Source: a bacterium
GTDB lineage: Bacteria > Bacillota > Clostridia > Lachnospirales > Lachnospiraceae
Reading direction: 5' to 3'
NCBI GenBank assembly: GCA_028724545.1
Contig: JAQYCU010000060.1
Location: forward strand, 1 to 44,004
DNA length: 44,004 nt
In this document: in pieces, positions 4,229 through 43,884 of the stretch
Position numbering within the stretch: position 1 is the stretch's first letter
Layout: every line of letters starts with the position of its first letter
The notes under the pieces: generated by a model
The model's input: only the letters and a program-made list of their open reading frames with translations
What the model was told of the DNA's origin: nothing
The model's database searches: none
Program-made: the position numbers and the translations under genes

Positions 4229-4618
4229 TCATTGATATTTCTCAAATACCTCTTGTATTCTTTCCACGGACCTTCTGGATGGTACCACCTTTCCTTCAAT
4301 CCACTTTTTATATTGTCCTCTCGTGTTCCCAAACAACCCGTCCATCTGAGAATTTGTTTTCTCCAAATTTCCTTGCAACACAAGCAAGTCCGTTTTATAA
4401 TCAGTAGCAAGAAACTTCATATATTCATCAAATATGACTTCTTCCGATACTTGTAACACGTTGCAAATCATTCGAACCTTTTGAAAGTCGGACGTTTCCT
4501 CCCGTCGGGATTCAAAGGCTTTCCCGTATGCTTTGGGATCTTTATACCCCAGTCTGCGCCCCAGTTCCATCTGGCTGTACCCCCGGAGAATCCGGTAGTA
4601 TTTTATCCTGCCGGACAT
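4229..4618 (-). CDS. XRE-type helix-turn-helix regulator, start uncertain
   Basis: From the ATG at 4618 the protein has 129 residues. It opens with a Cro/CI-type HTH (SGRIKYYRILRGYSQMELGR), and its C-terminus (GQYKKWIEGKVVPSRRSVER) resembles a second HTH. No good ribosome site precedes this ATG. In-frame sequence that still looks coding (VETDYRKLVLYDEQYIREQ) runs upstream to about 4705, where it meets the end of the sigma-factor fragment, so the true start may be an alternative codon or the gene may be a 5'-truncated remnant. It lies on the element side of the presumed sigK junction and could control rloAB. It carries the GATC copy (4537-4540) closest to that junction. Confidence 0.6.
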   Translation of the reverse strand: MSGRIKYYRILRGYSQMELGRRLGYKDPKAYGKAFESRREETSDFQKVRMICNVLQVSEEVIFDEYMKFLATDYKTDLLVLQGNLEKTNSQMDGLFGNTRGQYKKWIEGKVVPSRRSVERIQEVFEKYQ

Positions 4619-4706
4619 TTTCGTCAGGTCGATTCTCTGGGTTTGCTCTCGAATGTACTGCTCGTCATACAAAACCAGCTTACGGTAATCCGTCTCAACC
4701 CTTATT

Positions 4707-5012
4707 TTATGCGGCTTGAATAATGTCGCCAAAGAGTTGTAGTGATTTGTCAATGCAACGTGCTGCATAAGTGGCAAGGCGTATATTCTTCGTATCATCA
4801 AAGGTATCGATTCCCTTAATCAGACCAATAGTACCAATCGAAATCAGGTCATCCATGTCTTTATCTCCTATATTGTACTTTTTCGCAATATAGGCTACTA
4901 ACCGTAGATTTTTCTCTATCAGACAATCCCTGGCTTCCTTATCTCCTGCACGGCATTTTGCTATGCATTCTTTCTCTTCTTTTGCAGTCAAAGGTTTTGG
5001 AAAAGATTGCAC
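4707..5012 (-). CDS. sigK: SigK-type sigma factor, N-terminal half only
   Basis: 101 residues from the GTG at 5012, which has AGAGG at a good distance. A GTG at 5021 is too close to that site. The start SFPKPLTAKEE and the region-2 core NLRLVAYIAKKY, DDLISIGTIGLIKGIDTF and LATYAARCI match sporulation sigma factors. SFPKPL and AAR favour SigK over SigE. No membrane-binding pro-sequence is present, as in clostridial SigK without a pro-peptide. After AARCID the homology stops and 13 unrelated codons lead to a stop. Sigma regions 3 and 4 are absent, so this half could melt DNA only if rejoined to a 3' part. That is the situation of sigK split by a skin element. A small stand-alone sigma paralogue is the alternative. 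Confidence 0.72.
   Translation of the reverse strand: MQSFPKPLTAKEEKECIAKCRAGDKEARDCLIEKNLRLVAYIAKKYNIGDKDMDDLISIGTIGLIKGIDTFDDTKNIRLATYAARCIDKSLQLFGDIIQAA
4750..4754 (-). other. presumed attachment-site core in sigK
   Basis: Minus-strand sigK homology persists through ATTGA (codon for Ile plus two bases of the next codon) and ends there. B. subtilis skin interrupts sigK at nearly the same codon (ENE after AARCI). The five bases are the likely crossover region for a large serine recombinase. No recombinase gene is visible between 1 and 4750, so it would lie beyond the left edge. Confidence 0.4.
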
Positions 5013-5039
5013 TCGTGACACCTCTAAATGATATCTTTA

Positions 5040-5067
5040 TATCCTATGCAATCCCAAGTATGTCCGT
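5040..5067 (-). promoter_or_regulatory. possible SigK-dependent promoter of sigK
   Basis: On the minus strand AC (5067-5066), 17 bases, then CATAGGATA (5048-5040) fits the SigK consensus AC-N17-CATAnnnTA, about 20 bp before the presumed start. SigK genes are autoregulated. The consensus is short, so chance agreement is possible. Confidence 0.35.
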
Positions 5068-5081
5068 GCTTTTCCAATCAT

Positions 5082-6212
5082 TTATACATCCATTTCGCGC
5101 AATCTGTATTCCTTGTCTTCATCAATCATCTCTAACATTTTTTCCACAATAACAGGGTCAAACTGCGTTCCACTTCCCTTCGCAATTTCTTCCCTTACTA
5201 CTTTCTGGGGAAGTACATCACGATAACTGCGCTTTGACGCCATTGCATCATAGGCATCTGCCACACCTATTACCCTGGCAGCCAGAGGAATTTCCTCACC
5301 TTTCAGACCGTCCGGATAACCGGTTCCATCATATTTTTCATGATGCCATCTGGCTCCCGTTTCAATTCCCGGAATTTCCGAAATATTCTTCAGAATATCC
5401 CCACCAATAACCGGATGCGACTTGATGATTTTATATTCTTCATCTGATAACTGTGCCTTTTTGCTGATGATTTCATCCGGAATACCAATCTTTCCAATAT
5501 CATGCAGCAGTCCCATATAATAAAAGTCTTTCTGCTTTTTCGGCGACATATCCAGTCTGCGTGCAATCTCACGGGAATACTCAGCCACACGGATAGAATG
5601 TCCATTTGTATATTCATCTTTCGCATCAATCGTGTCAGCAAGCGCTTCCATAATCTGCATTGACAAACGCTCCACCTGCATCTGACGCTCTTTCGCCTTG
5701 CGTGTCTGTTCTTTTAAATCGGCCTGCAGTTTCTGCTGTACCTGATGAATTTTTATATTCCGGCGCACCCGCTGTACCAGTGTATTCTTATCAAGCGGCT
5801 TAATAATAAAATCCAAAGCACCTGCCTCAAATCCCTTGCTCTCCATTTCACTGTCATTTTCAGCCGTAATAAAAAGCACTGGAATATCACGCCATTTTCT
5901 GTGTGCCATAATCTCCTGAAGAACTTCCAGACCACTCTTATCCGGCATATTCAAATCCAGTAATATCAGGCTCGGAATTTCTTTTTGCAAAAAAGAAATC
6001 ACTTCTGTACCAGACTTGACAAAACTAACACGAAATTGTGGTTCCAGCATATTTCGTATAATTTCCCAGAATACCATATCATCATCAGCAACTAAAATAT
6101 GGTCCCTTGTATCTGTATTCCCCGTTTTTTTCTTTTTTACTGCATCTTTTTTGCTTTTTCCGGTCTTTCTGTTTTTTTCCACTTTAACCTTGTAACGATA
6201 TGTATTTTCCAT
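5082..6212 (-). CDS. response regulator with HD-GYP c-di-GMP phosphodiesterase output
   Basis: 376 residues. A Lys-rich N-terminal tail (1-36) precedes a receiver domain with phospho-acceptor D86 in LLDLNMP and the conserved Lys in IIKPL. A coiled linker follows (about 150-190), then an HD-GYP domain with H237-D238 in LLHDIGKIG, HH at 290-291 and GTGYP at 296-300. All metal-binding residues appear intact, so hydrolysis of cyclic di-GMP is expected when the receiver is phosphorylated. No kinase gene adjoins it. The four-gene signalling operon at 17-21 kb could supply one. The basic tail may bind nucleic acid or membrane. The gene starts behind a large leader hairpin. Confidence 0.93.
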   Translation of the reverse strand: MENTYRYKVKVEKNRKTGKSKKDAVKKKKTGNTDTRDHILVADDDMVFWEIIRNMLEPQFRVSFVKSGTEVISFLQKEIPSLILLDLNMPDKSGLEVLQEIMAHRKWRDIPVLFITAENDSEMESKGFEAGALDFIIKPLDKNTLVQRVRRNIKIHQVQQKLQADLKEQTRKAKERQMQVERLSMQIMEALADTIDAKDEYTNGHSIRVAEYSREIARRLDMSPKKQKDFYYMGLLHDIGKIGIPDEIISKKAQLSDEEYKIIKSHPVIGGDILKNISEIPGIETGARWHHEKYDGTGYPDGLKGEEIPLAARVIGVADAYDAMASKRSYRDVLPQKVVREEIAKGSGTQFDPVIVEKMLEMIDEDKEYRLREMDV

Positions 6213-6229
6213 AAACTCCTATATCCCTC

Positions 6230-6269
6230 AACGGCACCACATACTACAACCGTAGTACATAGTGCCGTT
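6230..6269 (-). other. two-helix stem-loop before the HD-GYP gene
   Basis: AACGGCAC (6230-6237) pairs with GTGCCGTT (6262-6269), and TACTAC (6242-6247) pairs with GTAGTA (6252-6257) inside it. It fills the gap between the MYG1-family stop and the HD-GYP start. No T-run follows on the minus strand, so it is more likely a leader structure or processing site than a terminator. It lacks c-di-GMP riboswitch motifs that I would recognise. Confidence 0.5.
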
Positions 6270-6272
6270 ATC

Positions 6273-7115
6273 TTACTCTTTATTTGCTATTGCATATTCT
6301 GCTACCTTGATAGCATCTTCTAAAGTTTCTGCTGCACACAGGAAACCATTCGGATGACAAAAACGGTGCGTCGGTATTCCACTCATTTTCTGCAAATCCT
6401 CTGTCGCAGCCCCCCACCACTCTTTTGGAAATTCACAAACCAAAGACTGGTCTTCTCTGCTGACAGCCACACCCTGTATGCTGTAACCCCCTCTGTTAGA
6501 AGGGTACACCACAAACTGATAGGTGCTGCCGATAACTTCCTGCTTCCACGGTGCAAATCTGTCAAGCACCAGAATCCTGCCATCAGACTCTTCCATTGCC
6601 TTCTGGACTAATTTTCTGCCACGCTCTATACCTGCCACAGATGTGAAATGATTCTTTAAAATAATTTCTGCCATATCCACTGCACGCCAGAATCCGTAAT
6701 CATATGGTTCATAGGAATCCCATCCCGGATTAAATTCATCCACAATCTGAGCCAGTGTATTTGCACATCCTGTATTATCAGACAAATCCAATGGCTGAAT
6801 AAACTTCTCATCAAAATAAGCAGCCTCTTCTGCGCTGACAACACATTCGCCATATGCAGCCCAAAGCAATCCAAATGCAGCATAAGGACATCCGTTTTCA
6901 CGATATTTCTTATCACTCTGATGATGGTCAAATTCGCCCCGGCCAATGTCATAAACGATTCCATCAAAATCCTCCGGAACTTCAAATCCTCTCTGAATCT
7001 TGATATCCGGATTTAATATTCTCAGAAAAGCTGTGGCAAATACATCATCTGAATGAAATTTACCACCATGCGTAAAGCCTTTTGACGGAATCACCATTTT
7101 ATCGTCTTCTTTCAT
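6273..7115 (-). CDS. MYG1 family (UPF0160) DHH-like protein
   Basis: 280 residues from the ATG at 7115 (GGAG six bases upstream). The ATG at 7127 lacks such a site. The N-terminus GFTHGGKFHSDDVFATAFL and the later FDHHQSDKKYRENGCPYAAF are the metal-binding motifs of the MYG1 family, DHH-type phosphoesterase relatives. Human MYG1 is a 3'-5' RNA exonuclease. The bacterial substrate is not known. The gene begins 21 bp after the isocitrate dehydrogenase stop codon and is probably co-transcribed with it. Confidence 0.88.
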   Translation of the reverse strand: MKEDDKMVIPSKGFTHGGKFHSDDVFATAFLRILNPDIKIQRGFEVPEDFDGIVYDIGRGEFDHHQSDKKYRENGCPYAAFGLLWAAYGECVVSAEEAAYFDEKFIQPLDLSDNTGCANTLAQIVDEFNPGWDSYEPYDYGFWRAVDMAEIILKNHFTSVAGIERGRKLVQKAMEESDGRILVLDRFAPWKQEVIGSTYQFVVYPSNRGGYSIQGVAVSREDQSLVCEFPKEWWGAATEDLQKMSGIPTHRFCHPNGFLCAAETLEDAIKVAEYAIANKE

Positions 7116-7136
7116 TTTGCACTCCATTTTATATTC

Positions 7137-8345
7137 TTACATCAAACCTTCTAATGTTTCACGAATTGCAGAGATGAAATCCTGACTGTTTAATACAGTC
7201 ACATCTTCCATACTGGTAATCAATGCCAAATCCTTTGTCATCTTGCCAGCCTCAATCGTTCCCAGTGTAGCCTTTTCCAACTTGTCTGCAAATTCACATA
7301 ATTCCGGAATGTTATCTAATTCACCACGTTTGCGAAGAGCACCTGTCCATGCAAAAATAGTTGCAACAGAGTTTGTAGAAGTTTCTTCGCCCTTTAAGTG
7401 TTTGTAATAATGTCTTTGTACTGTTCCATGTGCTGCTTCATATTCATAAACACCGGTTGGAGATACCAGTACGGATGTCATCATCGCAAGAGAACCACAT
7501 GCTGAAGATACCATATCACTCATAACATCTCCGTCATAGTTCTTACATGCCCAGATGAAGCCACCCTTTGCTTTCATTACACGGGCAACGGCATCATCGA
7601 TTAATGTATAGAAATATTCAATGCCTGCTGCATCAAATTTTTCTTTGTATTCTTTATCAAAGATGTCCTGGAAAATATCTTTGAAATTGTGGTCATAGAT
7701 TTTAGAAATCGTATCTTTTGTTGCAAACCACAAATCCTGCTTTGTATCAAGTGCATAACTAAAGCATGCTCTTGCAAAACTTTCAATCGATTTATCTGTA
7801 TTGTGAATACCCTGAATGATTCCAGGTCCGTCAAATTCCTGAATTGTTTTACGGATTTCCTTGCCATCTTCACCTGTAAAGACAAGTTCTGCCTTACCTG
7901 CTCCCGGCACTTTGATTTCTGTGTTTTTATAAACATCACCATATGCGTGTCTTGCCAGTGTGATTGGCTTTTCCCAGTTTTTCACGCAAGGCTCAATACC
8001 TTTTACCTGAATTGGTGCACGGAATACAGTACCGTCAAGTGCTGCCCTGATTGTGCCATTTGGTGATTTCCACATTTCTTTCAGATTGTACTCTGTCATT
8101 CGTGCTGCATTCGGTGTAATCGTAGCACATTTTACTGCCACTCCATATTTCTTTGTAGCTTCTGCAGAATCAATCGTAACCTGGTCATCTGTTTCATTAC
8201 GATGCTCTAATCCCAAATCATAATATTCTGTCTTTAAATCAACAAACGGTAAAATCAACTCGTCCTTAATCATCTGCCAAAGGATACGGGTCATCTCATC
8301 TCCGTCCATTTCTACCAAAGGTGTCGTCATTTGAATCTTAGCCAT
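7137..8345 (-). CDS. icd: NADP-dependent isocitrate dehydrogenase
   Basis: 402 residues from the ATG at 8345, preceded by GGAGGAATACAGA. Residues such as [13 protein letters not shown] near the start, [15 protein letters not shown], the catalytic [13 protein letters not shown] and [12 protein letters not shown] are those of the homodimeric NADP enzyme type that is also found in eukaryotes. It converts isocitrate to 2-oxoglutarate plus CO2 and NADPH. In fermentative gut clostridia this serves the oxidative half of an incomplete TCA path toward glutamate. No citrate synthase or aconitase gene adjoins it. It leads an operon with the MYG1-family gene and has its own promoter. Confidence 0.96.
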
Positions 8346-8376
8346 TCTGTATTCCTCCATTCATTAAATTAGAACC

Positions 8377-8405
8377 ATTGTATCACAATTCTTTTATTTT
8401 GAAAA
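8377..8405 (-). promoter_or_regulatory. promoter of icd
   Basis: TTTTCA, 17 bases, TACAAT on the minus strand, ending 31 bp before the icd start. The -35 box is weak and the -10 good. Confidence 0.5.
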
Positions 8406-8417
8406 CCTTTTCCGTTT

Positions 8418-8945
8418 TTAGCATTTGCCACAGCCGGCGCATCCTGTCGGCATATCAGAAGCCATATGCTCATACATAGAAGATATGGCACAAATCGCCT
8501 GTGAGGAAATGCCGTCACCTGCTCCGGTAAATCCAAGACCTTCCTCTGTTGTCGCCTTGACATTCACCTGATTTTTGTCAATACCGAGTGCTGTTGCAAT
8601 ATTCTGCTCCATCTGCTCGATATAATCCCTCATTTTAGGTTTCTGTGCAATAATCGTCGCATCAATATTTTCTATCAGATAGCACTCATTTTCCAGCATC
8701 GCTCCTACCTGTCTGAGCAGTTCCATACTGGAAGCCCCTTTATACTTTTCATCCGTATCCGGGAAATGTTTTCCGATATCTCCCAGTGCAGCTGCTCCCA
8801 GCAATGCATCCATAATGGCGTGCAGCAGTACATCAGCATCCGAATGTCCCAGCAAACCTTTCTCATAGGGAATGGTTACCCCGCCCAAAATCAATGCTCT
8901 GTTTTCTACCAGTTTGTGTACATCATATCCCATTCCGACTCGCAT
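8418..8945 (-). CDS. ispF: 2-C-methyl-D-erythritol 2,4-cyclodiphosphate synthase with Cys tail
   Basis: 175 residues. Motifs are complete: the zinc ligands D8 and H10 in GMGYDVHKL, the [14 protein letters not shown] segment, [10 protein letters not shown], and [17 protein letters not shown] near the end of the conserved fold. It forms the cyclic diphosphate in the MEP route to isoprenoids. The usual bacterial enzyme ends near residue 158-160. Here about 15 residues follow and end with CAGCGKC, a CxxCxxC arrangement at 169, 172 and 175 that is not part of the catalytic fold and could bind metal. The gene is alone, with icd downstream on the same strand. Confidence 0.96.
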
Positions 8946-9091
8946 AAAAATCCCCCTTGTCTTTCTTATTACTTTTCACACAAGCAAAACACAAAACAAT
9001 ATGCTAAAGCAACATATTGAAACTATCGTTTAAAACAATATAAGCAAAAAGCCCTGAAACAAACGCAATGTTCGTCCCAAGACTCTCTTAG

Positions 9092-9165
9092 TAGCGGAAA
9101 AGGGATTTGAACCCATGACACCACGGGTATGAACCGTGTGCTCTAGCCAACTGAGCTATTCCGCC
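9092..9165 (-). tRNA. tRNA-Met (CAT)
   Basis: The 74-nt cloverleaf starts GGCGGAATAGCTCAGTTGGC, has anticodon loop TTCATAC, a GGTTCAAATCC T-arm and a 3' discriminator A. CCA is not encoded. The D-arm and acceptor are of elongator type; initiator features are absent. Confidence 0.95.
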
Positions 9166-9197
9166 ATATTATTTAACTGTCACAAAAAATGTTATGA

Positions 9198-9270
9198 TGG
9201 GACCTACAGGGCTCGAACCTGTGACCCTCTGCTTGTAAGGCAGATGCTCTCCCAGCTGAGCTAAGATCCC
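9198..9270 (-). tRNA. tRNA-Val (TAC)
   Basis: The 73-nt cloverleaf starts GGGATCTTAGCTCAGCTGGG, with anticodon loop CTTACAA and T-arm GGTTCGAGCCC. It is the first gene of a Val-Met tRNA unit. Its acceptor stem holds the only GATC that I see between 4.54 and 42.95 kb. Confidence 0.96.
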
Positions 9271-9294
9271 TTGTGCATTTCACGCGACTTGTTT

Positions 9295-9323
9295 AATATA
9301 TCAAAACTCCCTCTGCTTGTCAA
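9295..9323 (-). promoter_or_regulatory. promoter of the tRNA-Val/tRNA-Met unit
   Basis: Minus-strand TTGACA (9323-9318), 17 bases, TATATT (9300-9295). The -35 box is perfect, and the first tRNA begins 25 bp downstream. The remaining gene-free sequence to 9467 is AT-rich and shows nothing else I can name. Confidence 0.85.
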
Positions 9324-9467
9324 GCACTTTTTTTCATTTTTATCGGATTTTCGGATTTTTTGTAAACTCTTTCTTATAATCCCTGCCATAACCACCGGAA
9401 AAAAGTTCCAAATATCTTCTTTTTGCTTCCTTTTATCTTCTTTTTCCCAAAAAGAAAGAAAGTCTGA

Positions 9468-9495
9468 TTGATTTTTTCTGAAAATCTTCTATAAT
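9468..9495 (+). promoter_or_regulatory. promoter of the VanZ-like gene
   Basis: TTGATT, 16 bases, TATAAT, about 80 bp before the start codon. Confidence 0.55.
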
Positions 9496-9573
9496 AATAA
9501 AGCAAGTCTGTGTCAGCGTCGCATACGCAGACTGTCATTTTCAAAATAAAATGCGATGCAGAATGGGGGAAAT

Positions 9574-29793: not shown

Positions 29794-29822
29794 AGTATAA
29801 CACTATTTCTTGATAATTTTAA
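29794..29822 (-). promoter_or_regulatory. possible promoter of the LRR protein gene
   Basis: TTAAAA, 17 bases, TATACT on the minus strand, overlapping the end of the GH5 gene. The -10 is good and the -35 weak. Confidence 0.4.
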
Positions 29823-32124
29823 CTGTTTTTTTCTGGCCTTTGCCTTTTAACAGTTTTTTGTACTTGGCATACTTTGCTTTTGGCACATAAATCTTACATT
29901 TTTTGTAAACACCTTTGAGTGCTTTTGAACCAACAGACTTGATTCCTGTTGATTTAATCGTAATCTTCTTTAACTTGGTTGCACCAGAAAATGCATTTTT
30001 ACCAATTGTCTTAACATTCTTTCCAATCGTAATGCTCTTAACCTTTTTGTTGTTCTTAAAAGCATTGGCAGCAATAGTTGTAACCTTGTAAGTCTTGCCT
30101 AATACTTTTACTGTGGCAGGAATCGTTACTGAAGCAGCTTTGCTGCTCTTTGGCGCCTGATATGCTACTGTCTTGCTCTTTGTACTGGTTACTTTTAACT
30201 TCTGGCCGGAAACTTTGACAACATCACCTGTTTTGACTGTTTCTTTTGGCTGTGGTGTCGGTGTTGCCGGCTGCTTCTGCTGCGTGTCATCCTTCTGTTC
30301 TACATCCGGATTAGAAGCAGAATAAACTTTGACATTACATACTGCTGTCATACCATTTCCAAGTGTTGCCGTAATCGTACATGTTCCTTTGCTGACTGCT
30401 GTTACCAGACCATATTTGTCAACTTTTGCAATAGTCGCATTAGAAGAAGACCATGTAACGGTGTCTTCTGCATCACTTGGCTGCAATGTTACAGATAACT
30501 GTTTCTTTTCTTTGCTGTCACATTCCAGTTTCAAATCACTTTCGTTCAGAACTGCACTTGTAGCAGATTTTACTACTTTAATTGCACATGTTCCCTGTGT
30601 TCCATTTGTTGAAATCGCTGCAATCTCACATTCGCCAACACCAACCGGTGTTACTACACCTGTGTCAGATACTTCGGCAACTGTTTCATCATCAGACTGC
30701 CAGATAACGGTATCTTCTACCTCAACCGGGTCAAATACTGCCTGCAGTTTCAATGACTCATTTTCTTTGCCTAAATACAATGTTTTGGAAGTTTCTGTCA
30801 GATATACTCTTGTAATATCTGCTTCTGTCTTTGGTGTATCATCACCATCATAAACATCCATAATTGCATCTACCAGTGCCGGTTTTGTAATCTCAAACGT
30901 ATTTCTGTCAAACAGATAGAATGCATAATTACCATTGTAACCCTGGTCCCAGTATACCGGAACACATCCTGTATCTTTACATAACTGGCACAACGTCTTC
31001 ATAAAGTATGCACGGTAAGCATCATTCGTAGGGTCAGCCTTTGTCTTGTCAATAGCGCCATACTCCCCGATATATACCGGAATGCCCTTTGATGTGAAAG
31101 TATCTTCCAACGCTTTAAACTGCGATTCCATATACTCTTCGCCACCATCCTGCCATACTTTTGATTTGTCGATGGCATATTTTCCCCACTGGGTATATTC
31201 ATCTGTTTCCAGACCACAGAACTGCCATGGAGAATAGTAGTGAACTGTTACCATAACTCTTGTTTCATCCTCTGGAATCTCTGCATCACGGTAAGTATCT
31301 GTCGGCAGTTTGAAACCAAGTGTATCACTGACTGTTGCGTCAATGTTTGTATTCCATCCACATACCATTAACCATCTCTTTGCATTGTTTCCACCACTCT
31401 TACGCACGGTGTCTACAAAAATCTGGTTGTAATCTACGATATTCTGATATGCTTCGTGAGTACTTTCATTTGGGAAACCATTCTTACCATCAAACTCTTC
31501 GTTCATCGATTCAAAAATAAGATGTTCGTCGCAATCTGCAAAACGCTCTGCAATCTGTTCCCAGACAGCTTTGTATTTTGCTTTGATTTCTACCTGCTTA
31601 GAAGCATCTTCGCCACAGAGCAGCCAGCTGTCCTGCACTGTATAGTAACCGTCACCATGCACATTAATATTAACATACAGTCCGGTGTCAAGAGCCATAC
31701 GAACCACTTCTTCTACTCTGTTCATCCAGGCTTCATCAATTTTATATCCACTTTCAGCATCTCCTACATAAGCAAGATAACTGGTTGGAATACGGACAGA
31801 TTTAAATCCGGCATCTCTTACGGCCTCGAAAATTTCCTTTGTTACTTTTGGATTACTCCAAGCTGTTTCATTTGGGAAGTTATACCAGACACCGTTAATT
31901 TTCTTTTTGTCATTTGCTTCCATTGTGTTTCCAAGATTCCACGCCGGGGATAATGCTTCAGCAATGTCAGCGGCAGAAACATCATCAAAGCTTGCTAAAT
32001 CAGCTTCAATTTCTTCTGCTGTAGCAGCAGTAGTTTTTGTTTCCGGTACGGCTACTGCAGCCAGGGATACTGACATAGATAATGCTAAAGCAATCGCAAC
32101 TGCTTTTTTTATCTGCTTTCTCAT
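29803..32124 (-). CDS. secreted GH5 endoglucanase with two BIG2 domains and LRR tail
   Basis: 773 residues from the ATG at 32124 (AAGGAGATAGAAGAT). The long upstream frame has no site. Signal peptide 1-35. The GH5 domain (about 40-425) has acid/base E209 in FESMNEEFDG, nucleophile E354 in YIGEYGAID, plus WNLGNTME, HGDGYY and VHYYSPW. BIG2 repeats lie at about 436-520 and 521-602, then a Pro/Thr/Gln linker and BspA-like LRRs (about 637-773) ending in KGQKKTVKIIKK. It should hydrolyse beta-1,4-glucan (cellulose or mixed-link glucan) outside the cell. The basic LRR tail likely keeps it at the surface, since no sortase motif is present. It is a paralogue of the next enzyme. Confidence 0.94.
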   Translation of the reverse strand: MRKQIKKAVAIALALSMSVSLAAVAVPETKTTAATAEEIEADLASFDDVSAADIAEALSPAWNLGNTMEANDKKKINGVWYNFPNETAWSNPKVTKEIFEAVRDAGFKSVRIPTSYLAYVGDAESGYKIDEAWMNRVEEVVRMALDTGLYVNINVHGDGYYTVQDSWLLCGEDASKQVEIKAKYKAVWEQIAERFADCDEHLIFESMNEEFDGKNGFPNESTHEAYQNIVDYNQIFVDTVRKSGGNNAKRWLMVCGWNTNIDATVSDTLGFKLPTDTYRDAEIPEDETRVMVTVHYYSPWQFCGLETDEYTQWGKYAIDKSKVWQDGGEEYMESQFKALEDTFTSKGIPVYIGEYGAIDKTKADPTNDAYRAYFMKTLCQLCKDTGCVPVYWDQGYNGNYAFYLFDRNTFEITKPALVDAIMDVYDGDDTPKTEADITRVYLTETSKTLYLGKENESLKLQAVFDPVEVEDTVIWQSDDETVAEVSDTGVVTPVGVGECEIAAISTNGTQGTCAIKVVKSATSAVLNESDLKLECDSKEKKQLSVTLQPSDAEDTVTWSSSNATIAKVDKYGLVTAVSKGTCTITATLGNGMTAVCNVKVYSASNPDVEQKDDTQQKQPATPTPQPKETVKTGDVVKVSGQKLKVTSTKSKTVAYQAPKSSKAASVTIPATVKVLGKTYKVTTIAANAFKNNKKVKSITIGKNVKTIGKNAFSGATKLKKITIKSTGIKSVGSKALKGVYKKCKIYVPKAKYAKYKKLLKGKGQKKTVKIIKK

Positions 32125-32160
32125 ATCTTCTATCTCCTTGTTCACTAAATTAGAAATCTC

Positions 32161-32188
32161 ATACAACCGGAATACACCGGCTGTATGA
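32161..32188 (-). other. 11-bp stem-loop in the gap between the two GH5 genes
   Basis: CATACAACCGG (32161-32171) pairs with CCGGCTGTATG (32178-32188) apart from one wobble, 37 bp before the downstream GH5 start. The T-run after it is poor. It could be a leaky terminator or a processing or stabilising hairpin that sets the ratio of the two enzymes. Confidence 0.5.
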
Positions 32189-32290
32189 GTTTCCTTAACA
32201 TTCTGATTCTATTTTCAGATTATTGTCCGTAGCAGTTTTCGGTACTTCATAAAGCAATTGGACATTTGCTTTTACTACCTTGCCTGCTGC

Positions 32291-34795
32291 TTATTTTTTA
32301 ATAATCTTAACAGATTTTTTCTGTCCTTTACTTTTAAGAAGTTTTTTGTACTTTTTGTATTTTGCCTTTGGCACATAAATCTTACATTTCTTGTTGATTC
32401 CCTTGAATGCACCAGACTTCACGCTCTTTAACTTCTTAGACTTAATTGTAATCTTCTTTAAGTTCTTGCAGCCATAGAATGCATTCTTGCCGATTGATGT
32501 AACATTTGCACCGATTGTAACAGATTTTAACTTCTTGCAGTTCTTGTATGCATTTGTGTTAATCTTTGTTACTTTATATGTCTTACCATTAATCTTAACA
32601 GTAGAAGGAATGGTTACTTTTGTAAGTTTCTTGCTTGTTACTTTTGTTACAGTAACCGTCTTAGCAGTTGCACTTGGTGCTGTATAAGTAACTTTCTTAA
32701 TTGTCTTTTTCGCCGGCTTAGCAACTGGTTTTGTGTTACTGTTGTTATTATTGTTGCTTGCAGGAGGTGTTGGAACAGTTTTCTTTGCCAATGTTTCAAA
32801 CTCGATTTCAACTGTGTTCTCATCATCTAATGTAACACCCGGGTAACCCTCGAATGTACGGGAATCTGTTACATCACCAATAGTAGGCATATCTGCAACC
32901 ATTTCCTTCTCAGGAGCCCACGTGTTAATAACAATCATATCCAGTACATAGTCATCATTAATAGCATCAACATCTAAGTTGTTTGTCAGTGGAATGTTTA
33001 CACCATTTACTTTGAGTGATTTTACGTTAACGTGGCAGTAGAAATCTTCTCCTGTCATTTTGTTAATTCCTGCTTCACACTTAACATCTTTCAGATACAA
33101 AGCACCAATGTTGCACAATGACTCTTTTGAAAAATTCATTGTTGCCTTGTAAGATTTTGCTACACCACTCTGGATGTAAAGTTCTTCACTTGATGTTACA
33201 GACCAGCTCTTTGTATTAGATGCGAAGAACTTACAAGCTAAGCCTTCCTCTACTACCGATACGGTACAGCTTGCACTCTTACCGTTTGCAAGAGATGCTG
33301 TAATCTTTGCCTTACCTGTACCAAGACCTTTTACAAGACCTGTCTGGTTTACTACAGCTACACTTTCATCGTCTGATGACCACTTCACTGTGTCAGTTGC
33401 ATCTGCAGGTGTTAATGTTGCCTTTAACTGAACAGTTTCACTCTTCTTTAAATCTGCTGTTTCTGTATCTAATGCAATGGTTGTTTCAGAATCACTTGTT
33501 TCTGTCTTATAAACATCCATCATAGCATCGATGATGCTCTGCTGTGTAACTTTTGCAGGTGTTTCCTCTGTTGCAACAGTTCTGTCAAAAAGACCGAAAC
33601 CATACTTACCATTGTAACCGTTGTCCCAATACATAGGAACAGCACCGATTCTCTTGGCATTCTCACATACCTTCTGCGCGAAGTATGCACGATACGTATT
33701 ACTCTCAGGGTCATCTTCTGTTTTGTCAATAGAACCAAACTCACCGATGAAAACAGGAACACCCTTTGAAGTAAACGAATCCTTTAACTGGTTAAATGCT
33801 GCTGCCTGTCCAGACTCGTCTGTAGATGCCGTCAGTTTGCTGTTGGTTGTGTAAGAACCCCACTGGGTTGTATTTCCATCTTCACCACCACAGAAGCCCC
33901 ATGGTGCATAGTAATGTACAGAAAGCATCAATCTGCCATCTTCAATGGATTCATTCTTGTATGTATCTGTTGGCATTTTAAATCCGTAGTCACCACAGGT
34001 AAATTCAATATCGGTATTCCATCCGGTAATAACTAACCATCTGGAATCATTATTTCCACCTGACTGGCGTACAGCGTCAATGAAAATCTGGTTGTAATCA
34101 TTGATGTTGTCATAATACTCTTTCTTGATGTTTGCTCCATCATAGGTAACACCATCAAACTCTTCGTTCATGCCTTCAAAAATCAGATGCTCATCATAGT
34201 CTTTAAATGTAGTGGCAATATTTGTCCATACGCCTTTGTATTTTTCTTTGATTGCGTCCTGCTTTGAAGCATCTGCATTACATAATAACCATGCATTTTT
34301 GATTGAGTTGTAACCATCACCATGCATATTGATGACAACGTATAAGCCTTCTTCAATGGCCATATCTACAACTTCCTGTACTCTTGCCATCCATTCTGCA
34401 TTAATTTCGTAACCACTTTCTGCATCTCCGATGTAATCGAAATAAGAAACCGGAATACGAACGGATTTGAATCCTGCTGCCTTAACTGCAGCAAAGACAC
34501 CTTTTGTGATAACAGGGTTTCCATATTCTGTTTCTGTAGGATAGTTATACCATACTCCGCCTTTCTTTTCTGTGTGTGCTGACTCCAGCTGGTTACCAAG
34601 ATTCCATCCCGGTGACATTACATCAGCAATTTCGCTTGCTGAAATTTCATCAAAGGTTGCTAAATCTTCAGCTAAATCTCCAGCTGCGCTGGCTTCCTGG
34701 AAGTTCACTCTGGAAAATGATGTCGCTACCAGTGCTGCGGAAAGAGCAACTGCTACACCCTTTGAGAATAAGTGCTTAATACTTTTCTTAAACAT
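32291..34795 (-). CDS. secreted GH5 endoglucanase with BIG2, unknown beta domain and LRR tail
   Basis: 834 residues with AAGGAG before the ATG at 34795. Signal peptide 1-37. The GH5 domain (about 40-430) has acid/base E211 in FEGMNEEFDG and nucleophile E352 in FIGEFGSID. One BIG2 domain (about 438-515) is followed by an unrecognised beta-rich domain (about 520-672: LACKFFASNTKSW, LKVNGVNIPL, LDMIVINTWAPEKE), an Asn-rich linker and Lys-rich LRRs (696-834) ending KGQKKSVKIIKK. The catalytic half is clearly paralogous to the adjacent enzyme. The unknown domain, placed like a carbohydrate-binding module, recurs in the LRR protein at 28516-29751. It is the first gene of the cluster, with a strong promoter. 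Confidence 0.94.
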   Translation of the reverse strand: MFKKSIKHLFSKGVAVALSAALVATSFSRVNFQEASAAGDLAEDLATFDEISASEIADVMSPGWNLGNQLESAHTEKKGGVWYNYPTETEYGNPVITKGVFAAVKAAGFKSVRIPVSYFDYIGDAESGYEINAEWMARVQEVVDMAIEEGLYVVINMHGDGYNSIKNAWLLCNADASKQDAIKEKYKGVWTNIATTFKDYDEHLIFEGMNEEFDGVTYDGANIKKEYYDNINDYNQIFIDAVRQSGGNNDSRWLVITGWNTDIEFTCGDYGFKMPTDTYKNESIEDGRLMLSVHYYAPWGFCGGEDGNTTQWGSYTTNSKLTASTDESGQAAAFNQLKDSFTSKGVPVFIGEFGSIDKTEDDPESNTYRAYFAQKVCENAKRIGAVPMYWDNGYNGKYGFGLFDRTVATEETPAKVTQQSIIDAMMDVYKTETSDSETTIALDTETADLKKSETVQLKATLTPADATDTVKWSSDDESVAVVNQTGLVKGLGTGKAKITASLANGKSASCTVSVVEEGLACKFFASNTKSWSVTSSEELYIQSGVAKSYKATMNFSKESLCNIGALYLKDVKCEAGINKMTGEDFYCHVNVKSLKVNGVNIPLTNNLDVDAINDDYVLDMIVINTWAPEKEMVADMPTIGDVTDSRTFEGYPGVTLDDENTVEIEFETLAKKTVPTPPASNNNNNSNTKPVAKPAKKTIKKVTYTAPSATAKTVTVTKVTSKKLTKVTIPSTVKINGKTYKVTKINTNAYKNCKKLKSVTIGANVTSIGKNAFYGCKNLKKITIKSKKLKSVKSGAFKGINKKCKIYVPKAKYKKYKKLLKSKGQKKSVKIIKK

Positions 34796-37651: not shown

Positions 37652-37678
37652 TTTTTCATCTCCCATCTATCTTTTCTA

Positions 37679-37742: not shown

Positions 37743-37815
37743 TGTGATAAAACAGATTTTCCTATAGCAGCACGCTTTCGCTTTGCTGCATTTTAGGAAA
37801 TTCTGTTTTATCACA
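37743..37815. repeat. 73-nt long hairpin A in the 37.65-38.18 kb gap
   Basis: TGTGATAAAACAGA (37743-37756) is perfectly complementary to 37802-37815. Inside, TTTCCTA pairs with TAGGAAA and GCAGCA with TGCTGC, leaving an 11-base loop. A partial direct copy of its left arm (AAAACAGATTTCCTACAGCAG) begins near 37707. No T-run follows on either strand. Confidence 0.85.
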
Positions 37816-38162: not shown

Positions 38163-38175
38163 TACAATAATCCCC

Positions 38176-39090
38176 CTATTCGTTTGCGCACACTTCGCTC
38201 TCCTGCTTTACAGAGGTCAGAAATATTGTCGATACTATCAGCACAAATCCTGCGAAGTCTATTTTTTCAAATGTACTACCAAGAAATAAGATGGATAAAA
38301 CCGTTGCTATCGGGATTTCTGCACACGCACACAGGCTTGCTTTCGACGAACCAATATGCTTGATTGCCAGTGCGTATGTCAGATATGCCAGCACGCTTCC
38401 AAACAATATCGCCAGTGCAAGTGACAGCACATCCATTGTCTGCATTGCCGGAATGTTTTTCCAGGGTTGCACGAAAAGTACTGCGACAATGCCACCGGAC
38501 AGAAGCATAACAGAGGTGATGCTTTGCACGGAATAGTCTTTGTATAGTCGTTCCGGTATTACCGTGCCGAGTGTCATAAAAAAAGCACAGCCAACGCCGA
38601 AGAAAAGTGCTTTTGGTGTTAGTACCAGCTGATGAATATCTCCGTGCGTGGATATCAGAAAAATTCCTGTCACGGCAAATAGAATAGAAAGTACTTCTAA
38701 CTTTTTCGGCAGTTTTTTCTTTCTTATACTGGCATAAATTATGACCATTACAGGGCAAAGATACTGCAGAACGATAGCCGTCGGTGCATTTGCCTCTTTT
38801 ACGGCACTGTAACAAAACAGCTGAAACAGCATATTTCCCAGAACGCCGGCCAAAATGCACTGTATAAAGTCTTTTTTGTGATGCAGCATCTTTCTTAAGG
38901 AACCTGCATCCACAATCCATGTATAAATCAGCAGACCAATGCCCGACAAGAGCATACGGATTGCCACAAACCAGCCCGGCTGCATCGTGGTATTAGAAAA
39001 CAGATATTGACTGAAGACTCCTGAAAGTCCCCAGCCAACACCTGTCATAATCCCACAAGTTATCCCGAGCATTCTCTTTTTCTTATCCAT
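38176..39090 (-). CDS. EamA/DMT family transporter
   Basis: 304 residues, ten membrane helices in two EamA repeats. GWGLSGVFSQYLF, ANAPTAIVLQYLCPVMVIIY and IGSSKASLCACAEIPIATVL are typical of the family. It probably exports or imports an amino acid or metabolite. It is the last gene of the run that starts with the cytidylate-kinase-like gene, 40 bp after the alcohol dehydrogenase. It is not a close copy of the EamA protein at 15016-15873. Confidence 0.92.
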   Translation of the reverse strand: MDKKKRMLGITCGIMTGVGWGLSGVFSQYLFSNTTMQPGWFVAIRMLLSGIGLLIYTWIVDAGSLRKMLHHKKDFIQCILAGVLGNMLFQLFCYSAVKEANAPTAIVLQYLCPVMVIIYASIRKKKLPKKLEVLSILFAVTGIFLISTHGDIHQLVLTPKALFFGVGCAFFMTLGTVIPERLYKDYSVQSITSVMLLSGGIVAVLFVQPWKNIPAMQTMDVLSLALAILFGSVLAYLTYALAIKHIGSSKASLCACAEIPIATVLSILFLGSTFEKIDFAGFVLIVSTIFLTSVKQESEVCANE

Positions 39091-39130
39091 AAATTCTGTT
39101 TTCCTTTTTTGTACCTTGTGTTTCTTCCTT

Positions 39131-40315
39131 TTATAATGCTTTGCGATACAGCATTTCTATGTCGCTCTGGCGTGAAGAACGTGGATTGACAGCAATATTT
39201 CCACTCTTCATAGCGTCCTCTGCCATTGGAGTGATTTTTGCTTCGATTTCTTCCCTTGTAATCTCGCCGTTCCGGCTTGCATTGTTGATTGCAACCGTGA
39301 GATTTTCCGGAATAGAAATATCGCTGCACAACTGTTTGATGGCATCTACCAGCATCATCGGCTCAAATGCATCCGGTGCTATTTTTTTCGGACTGATGTA
39401 GTTATAAATTTTATAATACTTTCCGTTATCTGCAATCGCATTGTATTCTGCAATAACAGGAAGTAACACTGCATTTGCTACACCGTGAGGTACATCAAAA
39501 TACGCACTGACCGGATGACTCATTGCATGAACATTGCCCAGTCTTGCAAAGGAAAAAGCGATTCCTGCAAAAAGAGAGCCAACCAACATTGCTTCTGCTG
39601 CTTCTTCATCCTGACGGTTTGCGACAAATTTACGAATATTTCCACCGATTAATTCCATTGCTTTTTCGGACATTGCCTCAGAGAAAGGCGATGCATCCGT
39701 AGAAATATATGCTTCTTCTGCATGGATAAATGCGTCAATACCACACGCAGCTGCCACGGATGCCGGTGCCGTGGTAATTAAGTCGGCATCCAGAATCGCA
39801 TAACTTGGCAACAATTCATAACTGAAAACAGTTAATTTGTAATCTCTGCTGTGGTCCGTAATAACAGAAAATGCTGTTACTTCTGAGCCGGTGCCTGCTG
39901 TCGTTGGAATTGCAATCTGTGGAATAATTTTTCCCGGAACTTTGTGCGCTCCTTCGTATTCTGTAATATTTCCACCGTACTTTGCAACAACGCCGACTGC
40001 TTTTGCCACATCCATCGGCGAACCTCCACCTAATGCTACGATAAAATCTGCCCCGGATTCTTTGAAAGCTACTGTTGCTTTTTCGACGGTTGTTACGGAA
40101 GGGTTTGCTTCTATATCCGTAAAGATATCTGCTGCTATGCCATCTTCCTTCAACAAATCTGCTGCCTTTTTCACGATTCCCATTTTTTCCAGATTTGGTC
40201 CGGATATAATCATGGCATGAGAACCATCCATCTTTTTTGCAACTTCCGGCAATTTTGCCAATGTTCCTTTTCCTACTATAATATTTTGTGGTACCGAAAA
40301 CGAAAATTCCTTCAT
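39131..40315 (-). CDS. iron-containing alcohol dehydrogenase
   Basis: 394 residues from the ATG at 40315. The NAD(P)-binding GGGSPMDVAKA, PTTAGTGSEVTAFSVI, and the metal-binding GNVHAMSHPVSAYFDVPHG (His ligands) are complete. The enzyme reduces an aldehyde or ketone, such as butanal, or oxidises the alcohol. Exact substrate is open. The ribosome site AAAGGA is 11 bases away, so translation may be modest. It sits between an APC permease and an EamA transporter, which suggests metabolism of an imported amino acid or amine down to an alcohol. Confidence 0.95.
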   Translation of the reverse strand: MKEFSFSVPQNIIVGKGTLAKLPEVAKKMDGSHAMIISGPNLEKMGIVKKAADLLKEDGIAADIFTDIEANPSVTTVEKATVAFKESGADFIVALGGGSPMDVAKAVGVVAKYGGNITEYEGAHKVPGKIIPQIAIPTTAGTGSEVTAFSVITDHSRDYKLTVFSYELLPSYAILDADLITTAPASVAAACGIDAFIHAEEAYISTDASPFSEAMSEKAMELIGGNIRKFVANRQDEEAAEAMLVGSLFAGIAFSFARLGNVHAMSHPVSAYFDVPHGVANAVLLPVIAEYNAIADNGKYYKIYNYISPKKIAPDAFEPMMLVDAIKQLCSDISIPENLTVAINNASRNGEITREEIEAKITPMAEDAMKSGNIAVNPRSSRQSDIEMLYRKAL

Positions 40316-40366
40316 TTTATAACCATTCCTTTCCCAATTAATCACTATTTTTTTCTTTCATTGCTA

Positions 40367-41899
40367 TCATTGCAGCTGTGGTATCTGTCTTTTTAATACA
40401 CGCTCAATTGCTGTATCAATAACTTTATCCAGTTCCTCATCAGCTACTTCCGGCATCAGGGTTGCTGCATCCTCATCCGAAATCAGTTCTACTAATGTAC
40501 CGAAGGAATCCTGATATTTTCTCTTACAGATAATATAGAATACGATTCCTAACAGGGCCCAGCCGCCAACCATCAGCCATTCCTGCCATACCAGGTTGCC
40601 ACCGGAACCTGGAACGCAATACATCATTACCATAAATCCAGACATCAGAACTGCCATTCCACCAACAAATTTGTACGCCGGTACGCGATATGGTCTTGGC
40701 ATATCCGGTTCTTTCTTGCGAAGAATCAGGAATGAAATAGAAACCATACAATATGCCAAACAGCATCCAAAGTTGCCGGCATCACAAATCCATACCATCA
40801 TCTTACGTCCTGCGAAAGGTGCAATCATAGTAAGTGCGCCAATCAGAATCAGGGCATTAATTGGTGTTTTATGTTTTTTGTGAAGTTTTGCAAACATCGG
40901 TGGAATCATATAAGATTCCGCCATAGAATACATTGCTCTGGAACCACCAATCATAAAGGAGTTCCACGAAGTGATGATACCACACATACCACCGACGATA
41001 ATAACCTTTGCCATAATCGGCGTTCCAAAGGCTTTTGACATTGCATCTGCTGTTACCAGACCGGTTCCTTCCTGAGAAGTTGCAATCGCTGCCGGGTTCA
41101 GAATATATCCGACTGCCAGAATAACAAATGCATAAAATACAACGGCAAGTACTACAGATAAAATCAACATTTTTCCTATTTTCTTTAACGGCACATTAAT
41201 TTCTTCTGCTGCCTGTGGAATAACGTCAAATCCGATAAAATAGAACGGTGTTACTACTGCTACTGCTAATACATTTTTCAGCATTGAGCCACCCGTATTT
41301 CCGATAAACACCTGTCCGTCCAGATTGTCTACGGAGCCATTGATAACGGATGCTACGATTAACAGAATACCGGCGCCACCGATGATAACCGTTAATACTG
41401 TCTGCAAAACTGCTGCCGTTTTCGCACCCAATATATTAATCATCATAATAATAAATGCTAAAATAATGGCAACTGCCAGCCATGAAGCATAAATATCAAA
41501 TCCTGCTACCGTATACAGATAACCTTTCAGGAATCCCGGCCACAGATAGGTCAGAATCGTCGGGAATGCGCATGCCTCAAAACAGGTAACACCAACATAT
41601 CCTAAAATAATTGCCCAGGTACAGATAAATGAGCCTGTCGGGCCCATTGCCTTGTGGCTGAATACATGCTCACCACCACATTGTGGCATGGCTGCCGTCA
41701 ACTCTGCGTAAGTCAGTCCTACAAAAAAAATCATAATGCCGCCAATCACAAAACCTAAAGCAGCACCTACAACACCACCGGATTCAATCCAGCCACCTGT
41801 TGAAACAACCCAGCCCCAGCCAATCATTGCTCCAAACGCGATTACCAGAATGTCCCATGCACTAAATACTTTATCAAACTCTGATGTTTTCTTAGCCAT
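40367..41899 (-). CDS. APC superfamily amino acid permease
   Basis: 510 residues with 12 membrane helices. The first-helix motif FGAMIGWGWVVSTGGW, EHVFSHKAMGPTGSF and PFYFIGFDVIPQAAEEINVP mark an APC transporter of amino acids or amines. The C-terminal about 50 residues are acidic and cytosolic. The ribosome site is GAGGAG. It begins 17 bp after the kinase-like gene stop and precedes the alcohol dehydrogenase, forming one operon. Confidence 0.94.
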   Translation of the reverse strand: MAKKTSEFDKVFSAWDILVIAFGAMIGWGWVVSTGGWIESGGVVGAALGFVIGGIMIFFVGLTYAELTAAMPQCGGEHVFSHKAMGPTGSFICTWAIILGYVGVTCFEACAFPTILTYLWPGFLKGYLYTVAGFDIYASWLAVAIILAFIIMMINILGAKTAAVLQTVLTVIIGGAGILLIVASVINGSVDNLDGQVFIGNTGGSMLKNVLAVAVVTPFYFIGFDVIPQAAEEINVPLKKIGKMLILSVVLAVVFYAFVILAVGYILNPAAIATSQEGTGLVTADAMSKAFGTPIMAKVIIVGGMCGIITSWNSFMIGGSRAMYSMAESYMIPPMFAKLHKKHKTPINALILIGALTMIAPFAGRKMMVWICDAGNFGCCLAYCMVSISFLILRKKEPDMPRPYRVPAYKFVGGMAVLMSGFMVMMYCVPGSGGNLVWQEWLMVGGWALLGIVFYIICKRKYQDSFGTLVELISDEDAATLMPEVADEELDKVIDTAIERVLKRQIPQLQ

Positions 41900-41916
41900 A
41901 TCGATTCATCTCCTCT

Positions 41917-42522
41917 CTATAAATGAAACATTTTCTTTGCCAGTATTTCTATATAGGCAGCTGTTTCATCATTTCCCAGCAAACTGCTGTCCAGCAATAT
42001 ATCTCTGTTATGACGGTCACCACGATTGCTTCCTGTAAAAGCAAGATGTCTGACATGATATCTCTTTTCTTTTTCTGCAATCAGAAGTTTTGCATCATTT
42101 TCCGAAAGATTGTGGCTTTCCATTACATTTTTGACACGTACTTCTTCCGGTGCGTAAATGAAAACACGCAAAATATTTTTCTCGTCTTTCAATATGTAAT
42201 CTGCTGAACGTCCTATGAATACGCATGACTCTCTTGTTGCCAGTTTCCGTATAATCTGCTTCTGAACATGAATCGCTCTGCCCGTCAAATCGGATAATTT
42301 TGAGAAGGAACCTCTTTCCTGACCGGCAACACCTTTTCCGGCAATGGTCAGGCCCGATTCTACTTTGTCCATAATGTCCTGTGGAATGCCAACTTCACCG
42401 ATAATGGCATCTACCGTTTCTCTGTCATATACAGGGATGCCCATATCTTTTGCAATTTTTTTGCCGATTGCATTTCCTTTGGCACCATACTCACACCCGA
42501 TGGTGATAATAAAATGTCCCAT
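41917..42522 (-). CDS. cytidylate kinase-like family protein
   Basis: 201 residues from the ATG at 42522 (GGAGG). The P-loop-like GCEYGAKGNAIGKKIA (residues about 9-24), VYDRETVDAI, CVFIGRSADYIL and HVRHLAFTGSNRGDR place it in the cytidylate-kinase-like family (PF13189 type), which is separate from true Cmk. Its natural substrate is unknown. It is first in a run with a permease, alcohol dehydrogenase and EamA transporter. Confidence 0.9.
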   Translation of the reverse strand: MGHFIITIGCEYGAKGNAIGKKIAKDMGIPVYDRETVDAIIGEVGIPQDIMDKVESGLTIAGKGVAGQERGSFSKLSDLTGRAIHVQKQIIRKLATRESCVFIGRSADYILKDEKNILRVFIYAPEEVRVKNVMESHNLSENDAKLLIAEKEKRYHVRHLAFTGSNRGDRHNRDILLDSSLLGNDETAAYIEILAKKMFHL

Positions 42523-42548
42523 ATTTTTCCTCCATTTTTTTGATAAAC

Positions 42549-42587
42549 AAGAGTAAAGCAGACACAAGCGTGCTATACTTTGCTCTT
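42549..42587 (-). other. leader stem-loop of the kinase-like gene
   Basis: AAGAGTAAAG (42549-42558) pairs with CTTTGCTCTT (42578-42587) with one wobble and a 19-base loop. No T-run follows. Role unknown. Confidence 0.4.
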
Positions 42588-42612
42588 ATGCAATATTACT
42601 TTTCGCATTTTA

Positions 42613-42649
42613 GAAAAACAGGGTGTCAAAATTTTATTTACGACACCCT
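42613..42649 (-). terminator. terminator of the aminotransferase gene
   Basis: AGGGTGTC pairs with GACACCCT across a 14-base loop, followed by GTTTTTC on the minus strand, 21 bp past the stop codon. Confidence 0.8.
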
Positions 42650-42669
42650 TGCCTTTGTTCTTATTTATT

Positions 42670-43884
42670 TTATGCCAATGCTTCTACAGCCTCTTTGATA
42701 ATAGCGACTGCCTTATCACATTCTTCTTCTGTTACGATAAGTGGTGGCACCATACGGATTACGTGTGCACCGATTGCCGTAATCAACAGTTTTCTGTCTA
42801 AGCAGCCGTGTTTTACGTCTACTCCATTAATACTGTCATCAAATTCAACACCAACCAGAAGTCCCTGATGTCTTACTTCTTTTACATGTGGAAGTTTTTC
42901 CAGTTTGGATGCAAAGTAGTCACCGACTTTTTTCGCATTTCCCGCAAGATCTCTGTCCAGAAGTTCATTAACTTCTGCAAGTGCTGCCGCACAGCTTACC
43001 GGATGTCCGCCGAATGTAGTTCCGTGGGAACCTGCCGAAAATGCTTTTGCAACTTCTGCTGTCGCACAGATTGCACCGATCGGCATGCCGCCGCCAAGTG
43101 CTTTCGCCATGGAAACGATATCTGGTTTGATTCCGTAGTTCATATAAGACATTACTGCACCGGTTCTGCACCATCCGGTCTGTACCTCATCGATCAGAAG
43201 AAGCATATCATTCTCATCACAGAATTTACGAAGTCCCTGCATAAATTCCATTGTTGCAGGATGTACACCGCCTTCTCCCTGTACCGGCTCAACCATGATT
43301 GCAATGGTGTTTTCGGTACATGCATCTTTAAATGCCTGCAGATCATTATACGGTGCATAAGAGAATCCGTATGTCATCGGTCCGAAACCAACCTGGCATC
43401 CGTTTCCCGGCTGACCGGTTGCGGACATGGCACCGAAAGTTCTTCCATGGAAGCCCATCTTTGCAGTTACGAGATGGTAACGGTTCGGTCCGTATTTTTC
43501 TATGCCATATTTACGTGCCATTTTGATCATCTCTTCGTTTGCTTCTGTACCGGAGTTCTGATAAAAGATCTTGTCCATGCCGATCGTCTCGCACACTTTC
43601 TCGGCAAGTAATGCCTGCGGAATCGTGTATGGATAGTTGAATGTATGCATGATGTCTTCTACCTGGTCTTTTACCGCTGCCACTACTTTCGGGTTACAGT
43701 TTCCTGCGCTGTTTACTGCAATACCTGCATAAAAGTCAAGATATGGTGTTCCGTTCTCATCATAGATATACATGCCGTCTGCTGTTTCAGCAAGAAAATC
43801 AAAACGCTCATAAGTCTCGATCATATACTTGTTTACTTTGTCTTTGATGTCCTGAAAAGTTAATCCTGTGTCTTTTAATTTCAT
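42670..43884 (-). CDS. class III (ornithine/acetylornithine/GABA-type) aminotransferase
   Basis: 404 residues with GGGGAGGAATCAGCA before the ATG. PLP-binding motifs: NSGTEANEEMIKMARKYG, GFHGRTFGAMSATG, LLLIDEVQTGWCRTG and the Schiff-base Lys in VSMAKALGGGMPIGA. It transfers the delta- or omega-amino group of ornithine, acetylornithine or a similar amine to 2-oxoglutarate. Without arginine genes nearby I cannot choose between ArgD and a catabolic role. Eight GATC sites occur in this gene against one in the preceding 38 kb, and its codon use is somewhat more G/C-ending, so it was probably acquired recently. Confidence 0.93.
   Translation of the reverse strand: MKLKDTGLTFQDIKDKVNKYMIETYERFDFLAETADGMYIYDENGTPYLDFYAGIAVNSAGNCNPKVVAAVKDQVEDIMHTFNYPYTIPQALLAEKVCETIGMDKIFYQNSGTEANEEMIKMARKYGIEKYGPNRYHLVTAKMGFHGRTFGAMSATGQPGNGCQVGFGPMTYGFSYAPYNDLQAFKDACTENTIAIMVEPVQGEGGVHPATMEFMQGLRKFCDENDMLLLIDEVQTGWCRTGAVMSYMNYGIKPDIVSMAKALGGGMPIGAICATAEVAKAFSAGSHGTTFGGHPVSCAAALAEVNELLDRDLAGNAKKVGDYFASKLEKLPHVKEVRHQGLLVGVEFDDSINGVDVKHGCLDRKLLITAIGAHVIRMVPPLIVTEEECDKAVAIIKEAVEALA

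Follow-up and report, generated by a model that had tools for sequence, protein, structure and literature searches.

The 44,004-base stretch described here (hereafter the window) is the whole of contig C60 from assembly GCA_028724545.1, the genome of a gut bacterium of the Lachnospiraceae that comprises 2,265,246 bases in 75 contigs, with a stated completeness of 99.64% and contamination of 1.01%. The feature under study is the near absence of the tetranucleotide GATC from most of its length. A recount found 19 copies: ten in the left part, between 1532 and 4540 (at 1532, 2307, 2537, 2570, 2585, 2603, 2705, 3461, 4039, and 4537), eight in the right part, between 42948 and 43822 (at 42948, 43078, 43192, 43341, 43525, 43567, 43582, and 43819), and a single one, starting at 9265, in the core that lies between them (4541-42947). 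An earlier reading made from the letters of the window (the sequence-only reading) had given the same three counts to the base, and the single core copy stands after the recount, which could have turned up many. The same reading had expected roughly 140 copies in the core; this figure is revised to 133.8 from base composition and to 122.1 under a maximum-order Markov model, and the deficit remains strong (Poisson P(≤1) of about 1e-51). Among the 256 tetramers, GATC is the most depleted in the core, with an observed/expected ratio of 0.008. The lone copy occupies 9265-9268 of a tRNA-Val gene with anticodon TAC (9198-9270, minus strand), which is where it had been placed.

The two GATC-bearing parts had been taken for recently introduced DNA, and both indeed look like recent additions. 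The left part (1 to 4747, an inner limit set by eye where the sigK reading stops) holds the ten GATC sites together with 9 to 10 CCGC/GCGG, and it abuts the 5' half of sigK (4740-5018, minus strand; model positions 21-113 of 227). The 3' half of this gene (model positions 107-226 of 227) is found on another contig, C14, at 50204-50566, adjoining a serine recombinase of 551 residues; a relaxase-like open reading frame (ORF) lies further in. Because the two halves sit on C60 and C14, the left part is read as one terminus of an element that intervenes in sigK, and the far end of this element on C14 likewise bears GATC. Within 1-4747 are encoded DUF5688, DUF932, RloB/AbiLii-like, AAA/AbiLi-like, and HTH_3 proteins, of which the AAA protein and the RloB-type protein match AbiLi and AbiLii and are encoded as a gene pair at 2142-4106. 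Skin-like elements that interrupt sigK occur in Bacillus subtilis and Clostridioides difficile. The element described here resembles them in that sigK is cut inside its coding sequence and a large serine recombinase adjoins the 3' half, and differs from them in a cargo that includes AbiL-like and relaxase-like genes and in the lack of a clear direct repeat, since the words shared by the two sigK halves do not exceed 10 bases and none lies at the break.

The right part corresponds to a gene for an ArgD-like class III aminotransferase (42670-43884, minus strand), which contains the eight GATC and nine CCGC/GCGG. In a search of 299 genomes drawn evenly from the family, in which the genus itself was represented only by G000 and G002, the protein was 92% identical to those encoded by genes from two other genera. 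The genome holds a second ArgD-like copy (C72:3-1139) and a third one, 42% identical, that is probably the standard ArgD (C69:17479-18645). The copies on C60 and C72 are 90% identical in protein and 80.8% in DNA, and the latter has no GATC and two CCGC/GCGG over 1134 bases; as read from the alignment, at seven of the eight GATC sites the differences between them are confined to synonymous codons. This contrast should not be over-read: 11 homologs from other genera carry from 0 to 12 GATC each, one of them none, and the C72 copy may have been poor in sites on arrival. A gene-conversion tract between both copies was considered and is not supported, as identity is even along the gene (76-83% per 120 bases).

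The avoidance extends beyond the window. Genome-wide GATC statistics were obtained from a sample of 681,924 non-overlapping bases, 30% of the 2.27 Mb genome. The first 20 stretches, one of which reads as N, contained 56 GATC where about 1,040 were expected (0.054), and all the stretches read gave 116 against 2432 expected (0.048), a figure in which the overlap of two stretches counts 10 island sites twice. Both this ratio and the 0.008 of the window core lie below the value of 0.78 at which avoidance of a restriction-modification (R-M) site is called. In stretches of at least 10 kb the ratio was always at or below about 0.14, while two short contigs were not or only mildly depleted, C16 (5.6 kb), with 18 sites for 21 expected, and C7 (3.1 kb), with 4 for 7.5. 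The non-overlapping sample contains 106 GATC, 60 of them in clusters of at least three and 46 isolated. The dense clusters are islands, and seven distinct ones with at least four sites have been found; outside these GATC-dense islands the ratio falls to about 0.02, the isolated sites amounting to about 2% of the expected number. Thirty-seven of the isolated sites are in ORFs, six elsewhere, and three in tRNA genes, a clear excess for the ten tRNA genes found, which sum to 743 bases (binomial p 2e-5). The sites in tRNA genes, such as the lone core GATC, presumably persist because they are held by function.

GATC is not the only motif that is scarce. In 514 kb, counting both strands, the ratios were 0.15 for CCGC, 0.15 for GAGAC, 0.12 for TTCGAA, and 0.15 for GAATTC, against 0.04 for GATC, with milder depletion of CTAG (0.30), GGCC (0.37), and CATG (0.38). 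Two of these motifs, CCGC/GCGG and GAGAC/GTCTC, are non-palindromic, and low CCGC is confined to this genome in the pooled data of its congeners.

The depletion results from selection acting on the GATC site itself, as deduced from codons whose context would create the site and from an alignment with the closest of the congeners compared, G012 (RecA 97.2% identical). Codon counts were made in 267 ORFs from the window core and 17 stretches, with 145 ORFs of G012 for comparison. For Ile preceded by G, the codon ATC is used in 2 of 1974 cases, against 30% elsewhere, a shift in log-odds of about -6. For Asp followed by C, GAT is used in 16 of 454 cases, against 73% elsewhere, and for Ser following NGA the TCN codons appear in 3 of 138, against 65% elsewhere. 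In the same three contexts G012 uses these codons at 15%, 62%, and 15%, a milder shift. In the alignment with G012 (119,753 columns, 76% identity), just 12 of 301 GATC survive, compared with 143 of 437 CATG and 81 of 246 GTAC. Among the 12 palindromes compared GATC shows the lowest retention, followed by GCGC (38/474, 8%), GGCC (14/124, 11%), AGCT (34/283, 12%), and TCGA (21/162, 13%); CCGC/GCGG, with 19 of 965 kept against 132 of 737 for ACGC, behaves like GATC. Sites have been lost through synonymous changes and through more than one kind of base change, GATC to GACC reaching 13.6% (4.9-8.6% for other GATx) and GATC to GATT 13.5% (7.7-9.4% for other NATC). Moreover, GATC is hardly ever regained: 10 gains were counted among 11,894 places where one step would suffice, whereas five other palindromes gave 1.3-5.8%. 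It is the near absence of ATC in Ile codons after G, together with this lack of gains, that identifies the site as the target of selection.

The residue of about 2% of the sites, and the use of ATC after G at 0.3% of its expected level, suggest a pressure that is still at work on the species or ceased not long ago, because neutral change after its end would restore sites. If it has stopped, the same data suggest that this happened only a very short synonymous distance ago, assuming neutral recovery. Since the islands keep their GATC, in this strain the site must now be either methylated or not cut.

The sequence-only reading had proposed that the host carries, or has long carried, a GATC-directed system. 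The first part of this proposal finds no support, as searches of the whole assembly for genes of the Sau3AI, DpnII, DpnI, and Dam types found none, with no Dam/D12 methylase (PF02086) and no match to DpnII (PF04556), MutH/Sau3AI (PF02976), or DpnI (PF06044), type I and type III systems not having been searched for. The second part is plausible in view of the congeners that carry such systems. The sole PF01555 match, an ORF of 537 residues, reads by eye as an RNA methylase and was set aside. No remnant of a lost system appears downstream of rpsI, which is followed by an apparent sugar-transport operon (by eye), and no family match appears elsewhere in the genome.

A search for C5 methylases returned one intact gene (237 bits) and one weak match under the cut-off. 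The intact gene is on contig C7 (L009, 3113 bases), encodes an N-terminal HTH, and follows a nuclease-like ORF (two repeats by eye) that matches a type II restriction enzyme model of PADLOC (2.2e-20). This ORF had no match in plasmid or phage records or in NCBIfam, and a shorter reading of it had none in Pfam or among solved structures. The methylase was considered as a GATC methylase of the Sau3AI type and is not supported as one, since it does not group with Sau3AI-linked methylases: it resembles the one of G004 at 34% over 106 residues, covering the catalytic motifs only, and its 60% identical relative in M. hyorhinis is not the gene that adjoins the MutH/Sau3AI enzyme of that organism. The name UpaP162, found beside the M. 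hyorhinis relative, points to an enzyme for CATG rather than GATC (PMC6191088), and no alignment of the UpaP162 protein with the C7 ORF was obtained.

In other species of the genus, by contrast with this genome, cognate enzymes are present (G041-G043 were searched for the bait and DpnI only, not for PF02086, DpnII, or MutH). DpnII was found in G001 and G004, and in pieces in G005. MutH-type nucleases were found in G002, G004, and G012, those of G002 and G012 near the cut-off, although the G012 protein matches Escherichia coli MutH along the greater part of its length (6e-7). DpnI was found in G003 and G008, and the G003 protein has both the PF06044 and DpnI_C domains. The DpnM-like methylase of G012 matches M.DpnII (4e-62) and adjoins a PF01555 methylase, and methylases at least 82% identical to it are encoded in G002, G004, G005, and G019. 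As a side observation, in G004 a MutH domain shares a 598-residue ORF (L230:1300-3096) with a C5 methylase domain.

Several of these genes share a location. DpnI is the first ORF of at least 80 residues after rpsI in G003 and G008, and Dam-type genes follow rpsI in G005 and G012. A GATC cassette is thus found downstream of rpsI in 4 of the 19 genomes that are readable there (this genome included), three of which are readable for under 1.2 kb. The opposite systems at this one locus are seen across species, not strains. Judged by eye, the Dam-type pair lies between apparent ileS and prs genes, without a nuclease, in G019, and after a resolvase-like ORF in G004. In G002 (L305), the rpsI site is occupied by an AAA-type ORF and an apparently RloB-like ORF (by eye), and this site may perhaps host other defence genes too. 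A literature search combining rpsI with defence islands, R-M systems, and hotspots gave no rpsI among the matches listed.

Taken together, we consider it probable that GATC-directed restriction, through cassettes gained and lost, has purged the sites from the core genome. Of the two causes offered by the sequence-only reading, restriction or a methylation-linked effect, it is the former that is favoured. We infer that such a cassette was carried until recently, or is still carried in other strains. The cassettes of the genus include both enzymes of types that act on the unmethylated site (DpnII type, and MutH/Sau3AI type with Dam) and enzymes of the DpnI type, which cut GATC when it is methylated. 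A wrongly methylated GATC, or one exposed upon gain, loss, or swap of a cassette, could be cut, and variants without GATC would outcompete the others. The purge would now be near its limit, what remains being sites held by function, scattered leftovers, and recently arrived DNA such as the sigK element, the aminotransferase gene, and other islands.

Avoidance of R-M sites has been described by Rusinov et al. in 2015, including traces of lost R-M systems (PMC4687349). In that paper GATC is singled out, being avoided in 38 of the 42 genomes that have genes of the DpnI type, and Eubacterium rectale is a named case. The present genome resembles those traces in the strong under-representation of a palindrome whose cognate system is absent from the genome and present in the genus, and differs from them in its ratio of about 0.02-0.05, far below the threshold of that paper. 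No paper joining GATC, Lachnospiraceae, restriction, and avoidance was found in the literature search.

Several observations weigh against restriction by such cassettes. None of the four enzyme families was found in this genome, and its rpsI site keeps no cassette remnant. Among 28 congeners, this genome included, GATC ratios range from 0.00 to 1.28 (estimated from 220 kb for G012 and from 4 to 47 kb for each of the others, hence rough). A RecA tree of 27 genomes places the strong avoiders in two parts, one with this genome and the other with G001, G002, G015, G019, and G022. The eight carriers (G001, G002, G003, G004, G005, G008, G012, and G019) have ratios of 0.05-0.65 and the remaining 20 of 0.00-1.28, a difference that is not significant (Mann-Whitney p 0.33, Fisher p 0.14). 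G012 has a ratio of only 0.58 despite an intact-looking system, while G015 and G022 are almost free of GATC and have no close system. G009 (0.88) and G017 (0.62) encode Dam-like proteins at 41-45% and were left out of the carrier count; G009 also has a PF01555-like gene, and including it would break the pattern. Current carriage does not significantly predict current avoidance. Finally, the low retention of GCGC, GGCC, AGCT, and TCGA relative to G012 indicates that GATC is not alone in being poorly kept.

A more specific form of this explanation, which we put forward tentatively, is that the genome has lost almost all of its GATC as an adaptation to switches between opposite systems directed at this site. 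In Streptococcus pneumoniae, DpnI and DpnII are alternative systems, and a swap would destroy a normal chromosome (PMC3573125). Here DpnI-type and Dam-type cassettes share the site after rpsI, and a chromosome nearly free of GATC could accept either of them or none, as well as DNA from both kinds of neighbours. The likeness to the pneumococcal case lies in the presence of opposite systems, with DpnI-type and Dam-type genes, in one group, and in the PF01555 methylase placed beside a DpnM-like one in G012, reminiscent of the arrangement of DpnA. The differences are that the comparison is between species of one genus, that the site is downstream of rpsI, and that G012 pairs Dam with a MutH/Sau3AI-type nuclease.

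Among the other explanations, the one that survives best, doubtful as it is, would place a GATC system in this genome under a form not recognised by the searches, for example the C7 methylase with its nuclease-like neighbour or a new family. The intactness of that methylase, the restriction enzyme match of the adjoining ORF, the present or recent action of the pressure, and the parts of the genome that read as N are consistent with it. However, the C7 methylase shares only catalytic motifs with the Sau3AI-linked one of G004, its M. hyorhinis relative points away from the MutH/Sau3AI enzyme, and CCGC, GAGAC, and CATG, also low in the genome, are equally possible targets.

It is likewise unlikely that the depletion is only the trace of a single ordinary GATC R-M system, which the lineage kept for a long time and shed in the distant past. 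This would agree with the lack of a cognate system in the genome, with the retention of GATC by imported DNA, and with the avoidance without the system that is common in the published survey (PMC4687349), but the two ATC codons among 1974 Ile after G and the ten gains leave little time since the pressure ended, if recovery is neutral.

Very little speaks for an artefact of assembly or binning, in which contigs of different organisms would have been joined to produce the GATC-bearing ends or the whole pattern. In its favour are the 75 contigs of the assembly and the location of both GATC-bearing parts at the end of a contig; nevertheless, every sampled stretch of at least 10 kb is depleted, the left join falls inside sigK, whose remaining half sits on a different contig next to a serine recombinase, and the right gene is intact and has a second copy in the genome. 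Least probable of all is decay by mutation, in which the methylated cytosine of GATC deaminates, since the raised change to GATT is equalled by the change to GACC, GATC is gained more than ten times less often than expected from other palindromes, neither of which cytosine deamination can explain, and the lost sites do not show a spectrum of C-to-T alone.

Apart from GATC, the window contains, at 29803-34795, two GH5 cellulase genes side by side, which also encode Big_2 domains and leucine-rich repeats of the BspA type.

The phenomenon itself is known (PMC4687349); what is new relative to the avoidance described there is its strength, the bound on its recency, the comparison of two copies of one gene, and the docking site at rpsI. 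In this genome, pressure on a site of four bases has left a clean imprint on codon choice throughout the part sampled, strong enough for GATC content to mark imported DNA and to bound the time when the pressure last acted. If the adaptation to switching is true, it would explain the avoidance of GATC where DpnI-type and DpnII-type systems coexist, which was called surprising in that paper.

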